A stretch of 64,000 nt of DNA. Source: Winogradskyella sp. GTDB lineage: Bacteria > Bacteroidota > Bacteroidia > Flavobacteriales > Flavobacteriaceae. Positions 40,784 through 45,466 of this stretch are shown piece by piece; the first letter of the stretch is position 1, and every line of letters starts with the position of its first letter. The stretch is from the NCBI GenBank assembly GCA_004211785.1, contig SHBX01000003.1:1-64000 (forward strand), written 5' to 3'. The position numbers and the translations under genes were made by a program. The notes under the pieces were generated by a model. That model did not search any database. It saw only the letters and a list, made by a program, of their open reading frames with translations, and was not told the origin of the DNA.

Positions 40784-40791
40784 TATATTTG
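40784..40791 (+). promoter_or_regulatory. Putative minus-7 box of the 40810 gene
   Basis: TATATTTG, a full match to TAnnTTTG, 18 bases before the ATG at 40810. The box contains the TTG that a longer reading of the gene would use as a start, which argues for the ATG. Confidence 0.4.
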
Positions 40792-40809
40792 AAATCTAAC
40801 CTATATACT

Positions 40810-41787
40810 ATGCAGCAATTAAAATCCTTTTTTGTTTCGCTTATGCTCGTTGCCTCATTACCGGCATTAGCGCAATACACTGAAGTTATAAATTCTAATA
40901 GACCAGGCGTTTCTAAAGCCGCTTTTTCTGTCGGAACCAATGTTTTACAATTTGAATTAGGAGGTTTCACCATCAAGGAAGAACACAATCCATTAAACTA
41001 TGAAGTGTCTGGTTTTGGTGTTGATTTTGCTGCACGTTTTGGACTTTTGTGGGAACAACTAGAGATAAATATTGAAGGCGTTTATCAAAACGATACATTT
41101 ACTAGTAATACGTCTGCTATACCTTTTGAAGACAAGCGTTCTAACTTTAGAAACTTTACAATTGGCGCTAAATACCTAGTCTATGACCCTTATAAAAATG
41201 CTGAGGAAGACAAGCCAAACCTTTATAGTTATCATGCAAACAGACGCTTTAAATGGAAATCTTTAATTCCTGCTGTGGCTGTCTATGTTGGTGCAAATTT
41301 CGATACAAAAGATAATCCTTTCACAGCACCAGATGTTGAAGGTTTTAGCCCAAAAATAATGGTGGCCACACAAAACAATTTTGCTGGTGGTTGGGTATTT
41401 GTAATGAATTTCTTAAAAGATCGTATTGGTTCAGACTTTTCAGATTTTCAATATATCCTAACCTTGACACATTCTTTCTCAGACCAATGGGTGTTATTTG
41501 GTGAAGCGCAAGGTATACAAAGTGACTTTTATGCAGATAATATCTTTAGAGTCGGTGGTGCTTATTTATGGACTAAAGACTTTCAGTTAGATGCAAACAT
41601 TGCTTTTAATACCAAAGACACTCCTTCAGTTTTTAATATTGCTTTTGGAGCTTCTTATCGTCTCGATTGGCATAAAGACAAAAAGATAGACAATGGTGGC
41701 TCCGTTGAGGATAAAGTGGATACCTCCAAAAACAAGAAAAAGAAGAAGCGTAAAAAGAAAACAGATTTCGATTCTGATAATTTATAG
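40810..41787 (+). CDS. Outer-membrane beta-barrel protein (transporter-like)
   Basis: A 325-residue exported protein. Start at ATG 40810 gives a clean signal peptide (MQQLKSFFVSLMLVASLPALA). The mature part begins YTEVINSNRPGVSKAAFSVGTN, a start seen in transporter-type outer-membrane proteins of the MetA-pathway/DUF3187-like group, followed by alternating strands such as FEDKRSNFRNFTIGAKYLVY and FQLDANIAFNTKDTPSVFNIAFGASYRL. The last 25 residues are a basic tail (KNKKKKKRKKKTDF) beyond the last strand. Ligand unknown. Eight bases separate it from the GNAT gene. Confidence 0.75.
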   Translation: MQQLKSFFVSLMLVASLPALAQYTEVINSNRPGVSKAAFSVGTNVLQFELGGFTIKEEHNPLNYEVSGFGVDFAARFGLLWEQLEINIEGVYQNDTFTSNTSAIPFEDKRSNFRNFTIGAKYLVYDPYKNAEEDKPNLYSYHANRRFKWKSLIPAVAVYVGANFDTKDNPFTAPDVEGFSPKIMVATQNNFAGGWVFVMNFLKDRIGSDFSDFQYILTLTHSFSDQWVLFGEAQGIQSDFYADNIFRVGGAYLWTKDFQLDANIAFNTKDTPSVFNIAFGASYRLDWHKDKKIDNGGSVEDKVDTSKNKKKKKRKKKTDFDSDNL

Positions 41788-41795
41788 TTGACTAC

Positions 41796-42917
41796 ATGAT
41801 TGAAATTAAAGAAGCGATTTCTAAAAAGGAATTAAAGCAATTTGTAAAATTTCCTTTTAAACTCTACGAGAATTCAAAGAGTTGGGTGCCTCCAATTATT
41901 AGTGAAGAGCTTACTACATTTAATAAAAAAATTAATCCGGTTTTTAAAGATGCTGAAGCGCGCTTTTTCTTAGCTTACCAAAACAAACAAATTGTTGGAC
42001 GTATTGCGGCTATTATTAATTGGCTAGAAGTAAAAGGTCAAAACGAGCTGAAAATGCGTTTTGGTTGGTTTGATGTTATTGATGATGTTAATGTTACCAA
42101 GGCTTTACTTGATAAAGTACACACCATCGGGAAAGAAAAAAACTTAAGTTATGTTGAAGGTCCAGTAGGGTTTTCAAATTTGGACAAGGTTGGGATACTT
42201 ACTGAAGGTTTTGACCAAATTGGTAGTATGATTACATGGCATAATTACCCATATTATGCAGATCATTTTAGAGCTTTGGGCTATGACGTTGGAAAGGGAT
42301 ATTCTGAAAATGTTATGGAATTCAAAAATATACTTCCAGAATTTTTTACGCGTGTACAAAACTTAGTAAAGAAGCGCTATCAACTGAGAGCTCTTAATTT
42401 TGAAAATAACAAAGACATCATGGATTACGCTGATGAAATGTTTGAAGTCTTCTCAAAATCGCATTCAGTATTGTCTTCTTTTGTAGAAATTAATAAGGAA
42501 CAACGCGAATATTTTAAAAAGAAATTTATTGGGTTCTTAAACCCAGAATACGTCAAATTTGTTTTAGATAAAGACGGTAAACTAGTAGGTTTTGGTATTG
42601 TAACGCCATCATATGCAAAAGCATTACAAAAAATGAATGGCAAGCTATTTCCGTTTGGTTTTAGGCATATCCTTAATGCTAAAAAGAACGCAAAGACCGT
42701 AACTTTTTATCTTATAGGTGTTTTACCAGAGTATCAAAACAAAGGTGTCACTGCTATTATTTTTGAAGAGTTTCATCAAACTTTCACAAAAAAAGGCATT
42801 AAACTTTGTGTTAGAGGTCCAGAATTAGACGATAATACTGCAATCCACAAACTTTGGAAAAATTTTAAACCCGTGGTTAATAAAAGGCGTTGTACTTTTA
42901 AGAAAGATATTGCATAA
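41796..42917 (+). CDS. GNAT-family acyltransferase, possible sulfonolipid N-acyltransferase
   Basis: A 373-residue two-part protein. The N-terminal region (about 1-180) has VKFPFKLYENSKSWVPPI and ARFFLAYQNKQIVGRIAAI, a GNAT-like half; the C-terminal half has LVGFGIVTPSYAKAL and the acyl-CoA loop GVLPEYQNKGVTAII near residue 308. Homologues in Bacteroidota are often mislabelled GTP cyclohydrolase. It is next to, and convergent with, the cysteate-fatty acyltransferase candidate. Bacterial ceramide synthase of Caulobacter is, to my knowledge, also GNAT-like, so N-acylation of capnine is a reasonable guess but unproven. It follows the outer-membrane protein gene by eight bases. Confidence 0.72.
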   Translation: MIEIKEAISKKELKQFVKFPFKLYENSKSWVPPIISEELTTFNKKINPVFKDAEARFFLAYQNKQIVGRIAAIINWLEVKGQNELKMRFGWFDVIDDVNVTKALLDKVHTIGKEKNLSYVEGPVGFSNLDKVGILTEGFDQIGSMITWHNYPYYADHFRALGYDVGKGYSENVMEFKNILPEFFTRVQNLVKKRYQLRALNFENNKDIMDYADEMFEVFSKSHSVLSSFVEINKEQREYFKKKFIGFLNPEYVKFVLDKDGKLVGFGIVTPSYAKALQKMNGKLFPFGFRHILNAKKNAKTVTFYLIGVLPEYQNKGVTAIIFEEFHQTFTKKGIKLCVRGPELDDNTAIHKLWKNFKPVVNKRRCTFKKDIA

Positions 42918-42965
42918 AAAAAGTATTCATTGCGAATGGTTTTTTTTATATATAATAGTTAGAAA

Positions 42966-44225
42966 CTATTCGCCCATTGCAGCAATAAGAGCTGCAGACA
43001 TGCGCTTATAAGTACCGTTGTCTAAACGTTCTCTAATAGCATCAAAAGCATCTAAAGTTTCTTCAACATCTTGCAAAGTATGTGTTGCGGTAGGTATCAT
43101 TCTAAGTAGAATTAATCCTCGAGGTATCACAGGGTAAACTACTATAGAACAGAAGATTCCGTGATTTTCTCTTAAGTCTCTAACCAAAGCCATTGCTTCA
43201 GGAATACTACCCTTTAAGTATACTGGAGTTACACAACTTTGCGTTGTTCCAATATCAAATCCACGGTTCTTTAAACCAGATTGTAAAGCATCAACAATCT
43301 TCCAAAGATTCTGCTTTAATTCTGGCATAGTTCTTAACATATCCAAACGCTTTAAAGCACCAACTACTAATTGCATTTGTAGTGACTTTGCAAACATTTG
43401 TGAACGTAAGTTATATTTTAAGTAATCTATAATTTCTTGATCTGCTGCAATAAAAGCACCTGTACTAGCTAAAGACTTAGCAAATGTTGCAAAATACACA
43501 TCAATATCGTCTTGTACGCCTTGCTCTTGACCAGCTCCTGCACCAGTTTTTCCTAAAGTACCAAAACCATGCGCATCGTCAACAAATAGTCTAAAATTAA
43601 ATTTTTGTTTAAGTGCAACAATTTCTTTTAAACGTCCTTGCTCTCCTCGCATACCAAAAACACCTTCAGAAATCACTAAGATACCACCACCCGTAGTTTC
43701 GGCCATTTTAGTGGCACGTTCTAAGTTTTTCTCTAAACTTTCAATATCGTTGTGCTTATATGTAAAACGCTTGCCATGGTGCAATCTTACACCATCAATA
43801 ATACAAGCATGAGCATCAACATCGTATACGATAATATCGTCTTTACTTACTAAAGCATCTACAGTAGATACCATGCCTTGGTAACCAAAGTTTAATAAGT
43901 AAGCAGCTTCTTTGTTTACAAATTCCGCTAATTCGTTCTGTAATTGTTCGTGTAATTCGGTATGACCAGACATCATACGTGCTCCCATTGGGTATGCAGA
44001 GCCGTATTGTGCAGCTGCTTCAGCATCTACTTTACGAACTTCTGGATGATTTGCCAATCCTAAATAGTCATTAATACTCCATGTAATAACTTCTTTTCCT
44101 TGAAATTTCATTCTGTTTGAAATTTCTCCTTCTAACTTAGGGAATACAAAATAACCTTCTGCTTGCGCTGCCCACTTCCCTAATGGCCCTTTGTCTTTGT
44201 AAATCTTTTCAAATAAATCCTTCAT
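42966..44225 (-). CDS. Alpha-oxoamine synthase, likely cysteate-C-fatty acyltransferase
   Basis: A 419-residue PLP enzyme of the 2-amino-3-ketobutyrate ligase / serine palmitoyltransferase group. Motifs: WSINDYLGLANHPEV, GARMMSGHTELHEQLQ, LVISEGVFGMRGEQG, the Asp-Ala-His of FVDDAHGFGTLG, and the PLP lysine in TFAKSLASTGAF. In gliding flavobacteria this type condenses L-cysteate with a fatty acyl thioester in sulfonolipid (capnine) synthesis, and the cysteine synthase-like gene directly upstream fits cysteate supply (the CapA/CapB pair of Capnocytophaga). Serine palmitoyltransferase is the alternative. Confidence 0.8.
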   Translation of the reverse strand: MKDLFEKIYKDKGPLGKWAAQAEGYFVFPKLEGEISNRMKFQGKEVITWSINDYLGLANHPEVRKVDAEAAAQYGSAYPMGARMMSGHTELHEQLQNELAEFVNKEAAYLLNFGYQGMVSTVDALVSKDDIIVYDVDAHACIIDGVRLHHGKRFTYKHNDIESLEKNLERATKMAETTGGGILVISEGVFGMRGEQGRLKEIVALKQKFNFRLFVDDAHGFGTLGKTGAGAGQEQGVQDDIDVYFATFAKSLASTGAFIAADQEIIDYLKYNLRSQMFAKSLQMQLVVGALKRLDMLRTMPELKQNLWKIVDALQSGLKNRGFDIGTTQSCVTPVYLKGSIPEAMALVRDLRENHGIFCSIVVYPVIPRGLILLRMIPTATHTLQDVEETLDAFDAIRERLDNGTYKRMSAALIAAMGE

Positions 44226-44251
44226 ACTATCTTTTCGAACTGATTTTAAAC

Positions 44252-44272
44252 TGAGTTTTTAGAGGAAACTCA
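44252..44272. other. Inverted repeat in the leader of the 42966-44225 gene
   Basis: TGAGTTT-TTAGAGG-AAACTCA, a perfect 7-bp stem 27 bases before the start codon at 44225. No T run follows it in the direction of transcription, so it is not a terminator; it may be a leader hairpin or operator. Confidence 0.35.
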
Positions 44273-44311
44273 ATTTATAATTTTATGTTAAATTAGTTTA
44301 GCTTAACCGGG

Positions 44312-44319
44312 CAAAATTA
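44312..44319 (-). promoter_or_regulatory. Putative minus-7 box of the acyltransferase gene
   Basis: Minus strand reads TAATTTTG, a full match to TAnnTTTG, 87 bases before the start codon, leaving a leader of about 80 bases that includes the hairpin at 44252-44272. Confidence 0.38.
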
Positions 44320-44381
44320 GTTAATAATATTATGAAAGCATAATTTATTTACCCTTTATATTCACTAAGTTTTAAATATAA

Positions 44382-44411
44382 AAAGCCCATTGAAATTCAT
44401 CAATGGGCTTT
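44382..44411 (-). terminator. Terminator of the cysteate synthase gene
   Basis: AAAGCCCATTGA / TCAATGGGCTTT, a perfect 12-bp stem with an AATTCA loop and T-rich sequence after, directly downstream of the stop codon at 44429. It uncouples the two sulfonolipid genes, which then need separate promoters. Confidence 0.85.
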
Positions 44412-44428
44412 AATATGTAAGTTAGTTT

Positions 44429-45466
44429 TTACTTAACGTATTCAATAGTAGCCTGCATTTCTGTTTGGCTATCAAAGAAACCTTGATCTTCCATCCACTT
44501 GTCGTTATAAACTTTACTCATATAACGAGATCCATGGTCAGGGAAAATAACCACAATATTATCTGTTGGCTTAAACTCTCCTGATTGATTAAGTGTTTTT
44601 ATCGCTTGCAATGCTGCACCACTAGTATATCCAACAAAAAGTCCTTCTTTTGCAGATATCTCACGGGCTGAATGTGCGCTTTCTTCATCTGTAACTTTTA
44701 CAAACTTATCGATTGAATCAAAATCTGTAGCAGTTGGTATTAAATTTTTACCTAAACCTTCAATACGGTAAGGATAAATCTCTTTATCATCAAACTCACG
44801 AGTTTCGTGATATTTTTTAAGTACAGAACCGTAAGCATCTACTCCAATTATATTTACATCTGGGTTTTGCTCTTTTAGAAACCTTGCAATACCAGAGATT
44901 GTTCCTCCGGTACCACTACACGCTACCAAATGCGTGATTTTGCCTTCAGTTTGCTCCCATATTTCAGGGCCCGTAGTGTTATAATGTGCTTCGGTATTTA
45001 AAATATTAAAATACTGATTGATATATACTGAACCTTTAATTTCGTTGTGCAAGCGCTTAGCGACTTCGTAATAAGATCTTGGGTCATCTGCCTTAACATG
45101 TGCTGGACAAACATAAACCTTCGCTCCCATTGACTTTAGCATATCAATCTTATCTGGAGAAGATTTTGAGCTAACAGCCAAAATACATTCATAACCTTTT
45201 ATTATACTAACCATAGCGATACTAAAACCTGTATTACCAGATGTTGTTTCTATGATTGTATCTCCAGGCTTAAGAATACCTTGACGTTCTGCTTCTTCAA
45301 TAATATGAAGTGCAATTCTGTCTTTTGAAGAATGACCTGGGTTGAAAGCTTCTACTTTAGCAAAGAAATTACCATCGAAGTCTTCTGTAACCTTGTTTAA
45401 TTTAATCAGGGGCGTACTTCCAATAAGTTGAAGTACGTTGTCATAAACGTGTTTACTTTTCGTCAT
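44429..45466 (-). CDS. Cysteine synthase-like PLP enzyme, likely cysteate synthase
   Basis: A 345-residue fold-type II PLP enzyme. The PLP lysine is K48 in [11 protein letters not shown]; the substrate loop is [12 protein letters not shown] and the phosphate-binding loop [17 protein letters not shown]. It differs from ordinary cysteine synthase in being longer, with a C-terminal part ([14 protein letters not shown]) like cystathionine beta-synthase but without CBS domains. Next to the fatty acyltransferase gene, the best guess is formation of L-cysteate from O-phosphoserine and sulfite, as known for CapA of Capnocytophaga. A cysteine or cystathionine synthase role cannot be ruled out. Confidence 0.78.

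Follow-up and report, generated by a model that had tools for sequence, protein, structure and literature searches.

The window analysed here is a stretch of 64,000 nucleotides from a Winogradskyella sp. of the family Flavobacteriaceae (assembly GCA_004211785.1, contig SHBX01000003.1, positions 1 to 64,000, forward strand). It carries three adjacent genes that point to sulfonolipid synthesis. The first is capA (44429..45466, minus strand), which encodes a cysteate synthase of 345 amino acids. The second is capB, also called sulA (42966..44225, minus strand), encoding a cysteate-C-fatty acyltransferase of 419 amino acids. The third (41796..42917, plus strand) encodes a GNAT protein of 373 amino acids from the bacterial ceramide synthase (bCerS/YghO) family. 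From its homology to YghO and an AlphaFold model, we propose it as the putative N-acyltransferase of capnine or 3-ketocapnine. N-acylation of capnine yields sulfobacins and RIF-type lipids. A preliminary description of this DNA gave the same three open reading frames (ORFs), and their coordinates, strands and sizes all match ours. The GNAT gene and capB are convergent, and the 48 bases reported between them are correct as the gap from stop to stop.

The two pyridoxal phosphate enzymes had been described as a capnine-type sulfonolipid pair, and the database comparisons agree. CapA passes the NCBIfam model NF053679, 'cysteate synthase', with 648.3 bits (cut-off 600), and it matches PDB 9k2p (E 1e-153). 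CapB is best matched by solved CapB/SulA structures. Its top PDB match is 28eh, 'Cysteate-C-fatty acyltransferase' (E 7.5e-214), followed by 7u7h (E 9.4e-173). In this sequence search, CapB was far closer to both than to serine palmitoyltransferase (SPT). K280 of CapB aligns opposite the alanine of an SPT, and Lys281 of SulA replaces the SPT alanine according to PMC9304779. The CapA-CapB-CapC pathway is named in PMC10191378, PMC12927429 and PMC11211663 (Capnocytophaga, Ornithobacterium, Flavobacterium johnsoniae, Alistipes SulA). CapA and CapB of this pathway were both identified in the window. However, no reductase gene appears among the listed ORFs neighbouring the locus.

By its sequence, the GNAT protein is a member of the bacterial ceramide synthase family. 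Compared with E. coli YghO, BLASTP gives 26% identity only, but over the full length (E 2e-36). Likewise, hhalign gives 99.9% over 363 columns (49-row alignment). The full-length homology to the family was obtained in this way with YghO. Pfam recognizes a GNAT domain in the window protein. No NCBIfam model matched it, and the sequence search of the PDB found no significant relative. The AlphaFold model has a predicted local distance difference test (pLDDT) score of 90.9 and a predicted template-modelling (pTM) score of 0.87. The folds ranked first by Foldseek in the PDB are tandem GNATs (E 2.5e-14, TM-score 0.58-0.63 by query). The model thus points to a tandem GNAT-type fold, a prediction made within the bCerS family for the window protein alone.

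PMC9386255 lists yghO (ECD_02850) together with CC_1154 of Caulobacter as an N-acyltransferase gene, CC_1154 being presumed to have this activity and required for ceramide, and yghO being its E. coli counterpart. The Caulobacter enzyme is the cytoplasmic CerS, according to PMC11087976 and PMC11324152. Next to one plasmid-borne copy of E. coli yghO are genes that encode an acyl carrier protein (ACP), a fatty acyl-AMP ligase, an epimerase and an enzyme with a class I/II aminotransferase fold. The preliminary description expected such neighbours to be annotated usually as GTP cyclohydrolase. This did not hold in the one place where we looked, the 20 listed of 43 matched plasmid records. There, the labels were GNAT/N-acetyltransferase, YghO, hypothetical, dATP pyrophosphohydrolase, or none.

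We surveyed the family of the window with one genome per genus, 149 genomes in total. The cut-offs were E <= 1e-10 for the GNAT, E <= 1e-60 for CapB, E <= 1e-85 for CapA and E <= 1e-110 for the SPT model. CapB is present in 146/149 genomes. The GNAT is present in 138/149, and in 135 of these it is window-like over its full length. The conservation of both in the family is beyond chance. The CapA search also returned 146 genomes, a figure that includes cystathionine-synthase-like paralogues. Three genomes had no CapB match. Two of them (G002 and G016), the only ones at least 90% complete, have neither CapA nor a bCerS match. The third (G081) is 66% complete and carries the GNAT.

The partner enzyme differs from the usual one of the bCerS family. 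bCerS is usually partnered by SPT, whereas in this family the SPT model matched 1/149 genomes, with CapB in its place. No genome scored above the cut-off of the model itself. The single match (G128) lies about 40 bases upstream of a bCerS-type GNAT (L041 5225-7480), and this genome has a separate CapB elsewhere. In the genome of the window, which is 89.7% complete, the one bCerS-family match is the GNAT itself, and no SPT was found at E <= 1e-110. The SPT partner is a matter of genomic context and not a property of the protein. As SPT occurs in just one of the 149 genomes, the CapB product would be the natural acceptor for the GNAT.

We therefore consider it fairly probable that this protein is a bCerS-type tandem GNAT which N-acylates the CapB product to give the N-acylated sulfonolipid. 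CapA would make cysteate, CapB would join a fatty acyl group to it, and the product would be reduced to the capnine base. The GNAT, which we infer to be active, would use an acyl thioester to place a (3-hydroxy)acyl chain on the amine of the CapB product. The donor is probably acyl-ACP, by extension of the argument made for Alistipes in PMC9304779. The acceptor would be either capnine or, should the acyl chain be added before the reduction, 3-ketocapnine. For Caulobacter, acylation is considered to be the earlier of the two steps (PMC11087976, PMC9304779). On the other hand, the sulfonolipid work has CapC and KCR reducing the free ketobase (PMC11211663). Either order may therefore apply here.

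Relatives elsewhere in the phylum were compared in a sample of 198 genomes. An SPT-type match was listed for 65 genomes, and both an SPT-type and a GNAT match for 35. In 30 of these 35, the GNAT immediately follows the SPT-type gene in the same orientation. The 30 genomes span nine families, with 16 from a single one. Most phylum matches to the SPT model are below its cut-off, and Bacillus subtilis also scores, so 'SPT-type' may include related synthases. In a tree of 47 members, the window protein falls in a supported group (100/100) with the SPT-neighbouring members from G128 and G179. The gene order in G179 is SPT (over its cut-off), GNAT and epimerase.

A bCerS relative was found in 40/44 genomes with CapB only, 116/117 with an SPT-type gene only, 30/30 with both and 3/7 with neither. 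Counting every genome that holds CapB, an SPT-type gene or both, 186/191 thus have a relative, versus 3/7 for the rest (Fisher p 6.7e-5, uncorrected for kinship). This value overstates independence, because the four genomes of the seven that lack a relative belong to a single family. Co-occurrence with CapB alone was set aside as uninformative at the level of the phylum, since ceramide makers also carry the bCerS family.

One distant genome, G116, shows a different arrangement. Its GNAT, a short-chain dehydrogenase/reductase (SDR), a CapA-like and a CapB-like gene form a single-direction run in which the genes are 1 to 44 bp apart. The CapA-like protein scores 373 bits, under the cut-off of 600. 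In the 47-member tree, the G116 GNAT falls in another group than the window protein. An operon-like N-acyltransferase on the strand of capA and capB was seen neither in the window nor in any of the 102 close pairs described below; G116 is the one co-directional case. The best match to the G116 SDR in the genome of the window lies on another contig, C3 (30% identity, E 2.3e-26). By this similarity, it is a candidate for the reductase.

Several observations weigh against the proposed role, and the first concern the gene neighbourhood. In the 134 genomes with both genes, GNAT and capB are on the same contig in 113, within 5 kb in 102 and within 300 bases in 87. All 102 close pairs are convergent. 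The linkage across Flavobacteriaceae, which the preliminary description proposed to check, is therefore common, and the unlinked outcome that it named as a refutation did not occur. As a control, we considered the 32 genomes where the two genes are separated by more than 20 kb or lie on different contigs. The GNAT side was read in 31 of them (G146 was left out) and the capB side in 20, hand-picked. These were compared with 20 of the 102 close pairs, hand-picked out of 40 drawn at random and mostly omitting close kin of the window.

The control draws attention to the gene on the other side of the GNAT. In the window, it encodes an outer-membrane-type protein (OMP; Phenol_MetA_deg, PF13557, Pfam E 2.1e-33) at 40789..41787, plus strand. 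Its end is 8 bp before the start of the GNAT gene, which has the same orientation. The OMP gene stands beside the GNAT in 19/20 close pairs. It also stays there in 29/31 unlinked GNAT regions, within 400 bases in 28. On the unlinked capB side, capA is adjacent in 19/20 and the OMP gene in 0/20. The tightest neighbour of the GNAT is the OMP gene, not capB. Moreover, the block POP-capA-capB-(GNAT)-OMP-DUF4834-YfhO is syntenic even in genomes without the GNAT. The junction between GNAT and capB is a seam between two conserved blocks.

Adjacency as proof of the role was accordingly rejected; it is weak evidence, because the block is syntenic and the GNAT follows the OMP gene. The same data suit another explanation, namely that the GNAT acylates some other amine, carried by a different lipid or by a component of the envelope, and that its place by capB is a relic of gene order. 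The lack of a bCerS match in some capB genomes, given below, also fits. Conversely, the OMP gene stays by capB at five loci where the GNAT is missing (L162, L163, L164, L170, L181), so the OMP does not need the GNAT. In nine families, homologues of the GNAT are found beside SPT-type genes. Besides, except in G128, no other long-chain-base enzyme was found in the family for the GNAT to serve. We regard this explanation as unlikely. The suggestion of the GNAT as a candidate for N-acylation stands in part. It is a bCerS homologue, single in its genome by search, with no SPT found. The argument from position does not carry it, and capB occurs without a bCerS match. The sulfonolipid role is plausible and the best available; what supports it is that the protein belongs to the bCerS family and that SPT is lacking, not the neighbourhood.

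The second set of contrary observations concerns capB genomes without a bCerS match. In the family, both protein and profile searches left 9/146 capB-bearing genomes without one, and seven of the nine are at least 99% complete. Three further genomes hold a distant GNAT type only. The bCerS-family profile found nothing in the 12 flavobacterial genomes lacking a first match, 10 of which carry capB. These ten exceptions are the nine of the survey and G199, from outside it. Beyond the family, no bCerS match was obtained in G187, which is 100% complete and has CapB, and G210 and G301 have short, weak relatives only.

The exceptions include relatives of Gramella. A scan with an exception-group CapB gave, in the best 80 of 589 relatives, Gramella, Christiangramia, Salegentibacter and others. 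The GNAT is present at 51 of these 80 loci, and some of the remaining loci are cut by contig ends. Genomes of Gramella, Christiangramia, Salegentibacter, Gillisia, Mesonia and Psychroflexus keep capA and capB (L162, L163, L164, L170, L181, L217). A whole-genome profile search found bCerS in 0/6 of Gramella jeungdoensis, Christiangramia bathymodioli, Salegentibacter lacus, Mesonia mobilis, Psychroflexus curvus and a Gillisia metagenome-assembled genome. The same search was positive in 3/3 for Leeuwenhoekiella polynyae and two Aequorivita. Likewise, G100, a genome without the GNAT and close to the Gramella group, keeps a CapA above the cut-off (657 bits).

We examined simple causes for these exceptions. 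A single loss of bCerS is not supported, since the ten exceptions need 4 changes on the CapB tree (52 rows), at least 3 of them by supported branches. A hidden bCerS was also rejected, as searching with the profile gave no match in the 12 family genomes, in G187 or in the six Gramella-group genomes. Incomplete assembly is an unlikely cause for the seven survey genomes at least 99% complete; the completeness of the six Gramella-group genomes was not given. In the exceptions, capnine may stay unacylated, or a different enzyme may acylate it.

The last option leads to a further alternative. Flavobacterial sulfonolipids would be N-acylated by another family, for example one related to GlsB, in the Gramella group as well, with the bCerS relative being redundant or differently used. 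GlsB, the glycine-lipid N-acyltransferase, is similar by description, as it too attaches a 3-hydroxyacyl chain to an amine (PMC10191378). The Gramella group, which keeps CapB without a bCerS match, and the CapA of G100 are what this explanation would expect. However, no acyltransferase was seen by eye in two GNAT-less regions (L032, L037); the other seven were searched with the window proteins only, and no whole-genome acyltransferase screen was made. The Gramella group may also simply make free capnine. Among the literature records listed for Gramella-group lipids, nothing pertinent appeared. Taken together, N-acylation by another family seems to us rather improbable.

A third set of contrary points concerns the relatives of the GNAT. 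Some window-like GNATs occur in apparent fatty-acid-type clusters (L150, L151, L156) or where CapB was not found (f15), so the window-like clade need not share one acceptor. In addition, PMC9386255 itself presents the activity of E. coli YghO as a suggestion.

The clusters at L150, L151 and L156 place the GNAT beside an apparent hotdog dehydratase and a ketosynthase, and L150 and L151 also have an acyl carrier protein. These names were read from sequence starts and not from a family scan. Such contexts suggest other acceptors or donors in that clade. Another cluster (L048 671-11458, G147:C94) is co-directional. Three of its products are radical SAM proteins, two of which have a B12-binding domain that scores above its cut-off. 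Alongside them come a bCerS-family GNAT, a BioF/SPT-like synthase, an SDR, a FemAB-like protein and an MMPL protein. It looks like an uncharacterised aminolipid pathway.

Regarding transcription at the window locus, capA and capB are separated by 203 bases. This gap contains a terminator-like hairpin of 12 pairs (44382..44411, minus strand), which has the longest stem among the 3 such sites of the region, versus 2.7 expected in shuffles. With this hairpin between them, the pair may be two transcripts. The promoter scan of the region gave a signal at chance level.

The steps to capnine are assigned in PMC10191378 and PMC11211663. In the literature searched, as far as its text was accessible, no enzyme is named for the N-acylation of capnine; subscription papers fell mostly outside the search, so one may be in print elsewhere. 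The role given here to the GNAT is newly assigned, within an enzyme family that is already known. A wider version of it, which we hold only tentatively and think somewhat doubtful, is that bCerS enzymes are the missing sulfonolipid N-acyltransferase across Bacteroidota, with the substrate set by SPT or CapB, depending on which of them a genome has. Gramella, Salegentibacter, Mesonia and Psychroflexus would then be natural deletion mutants, with free capnine as a one-chain membrane lipid. One gene, the four-gene run of G116 and these natural deletion lineages make the question of sulfonolipid N-acylation testable.

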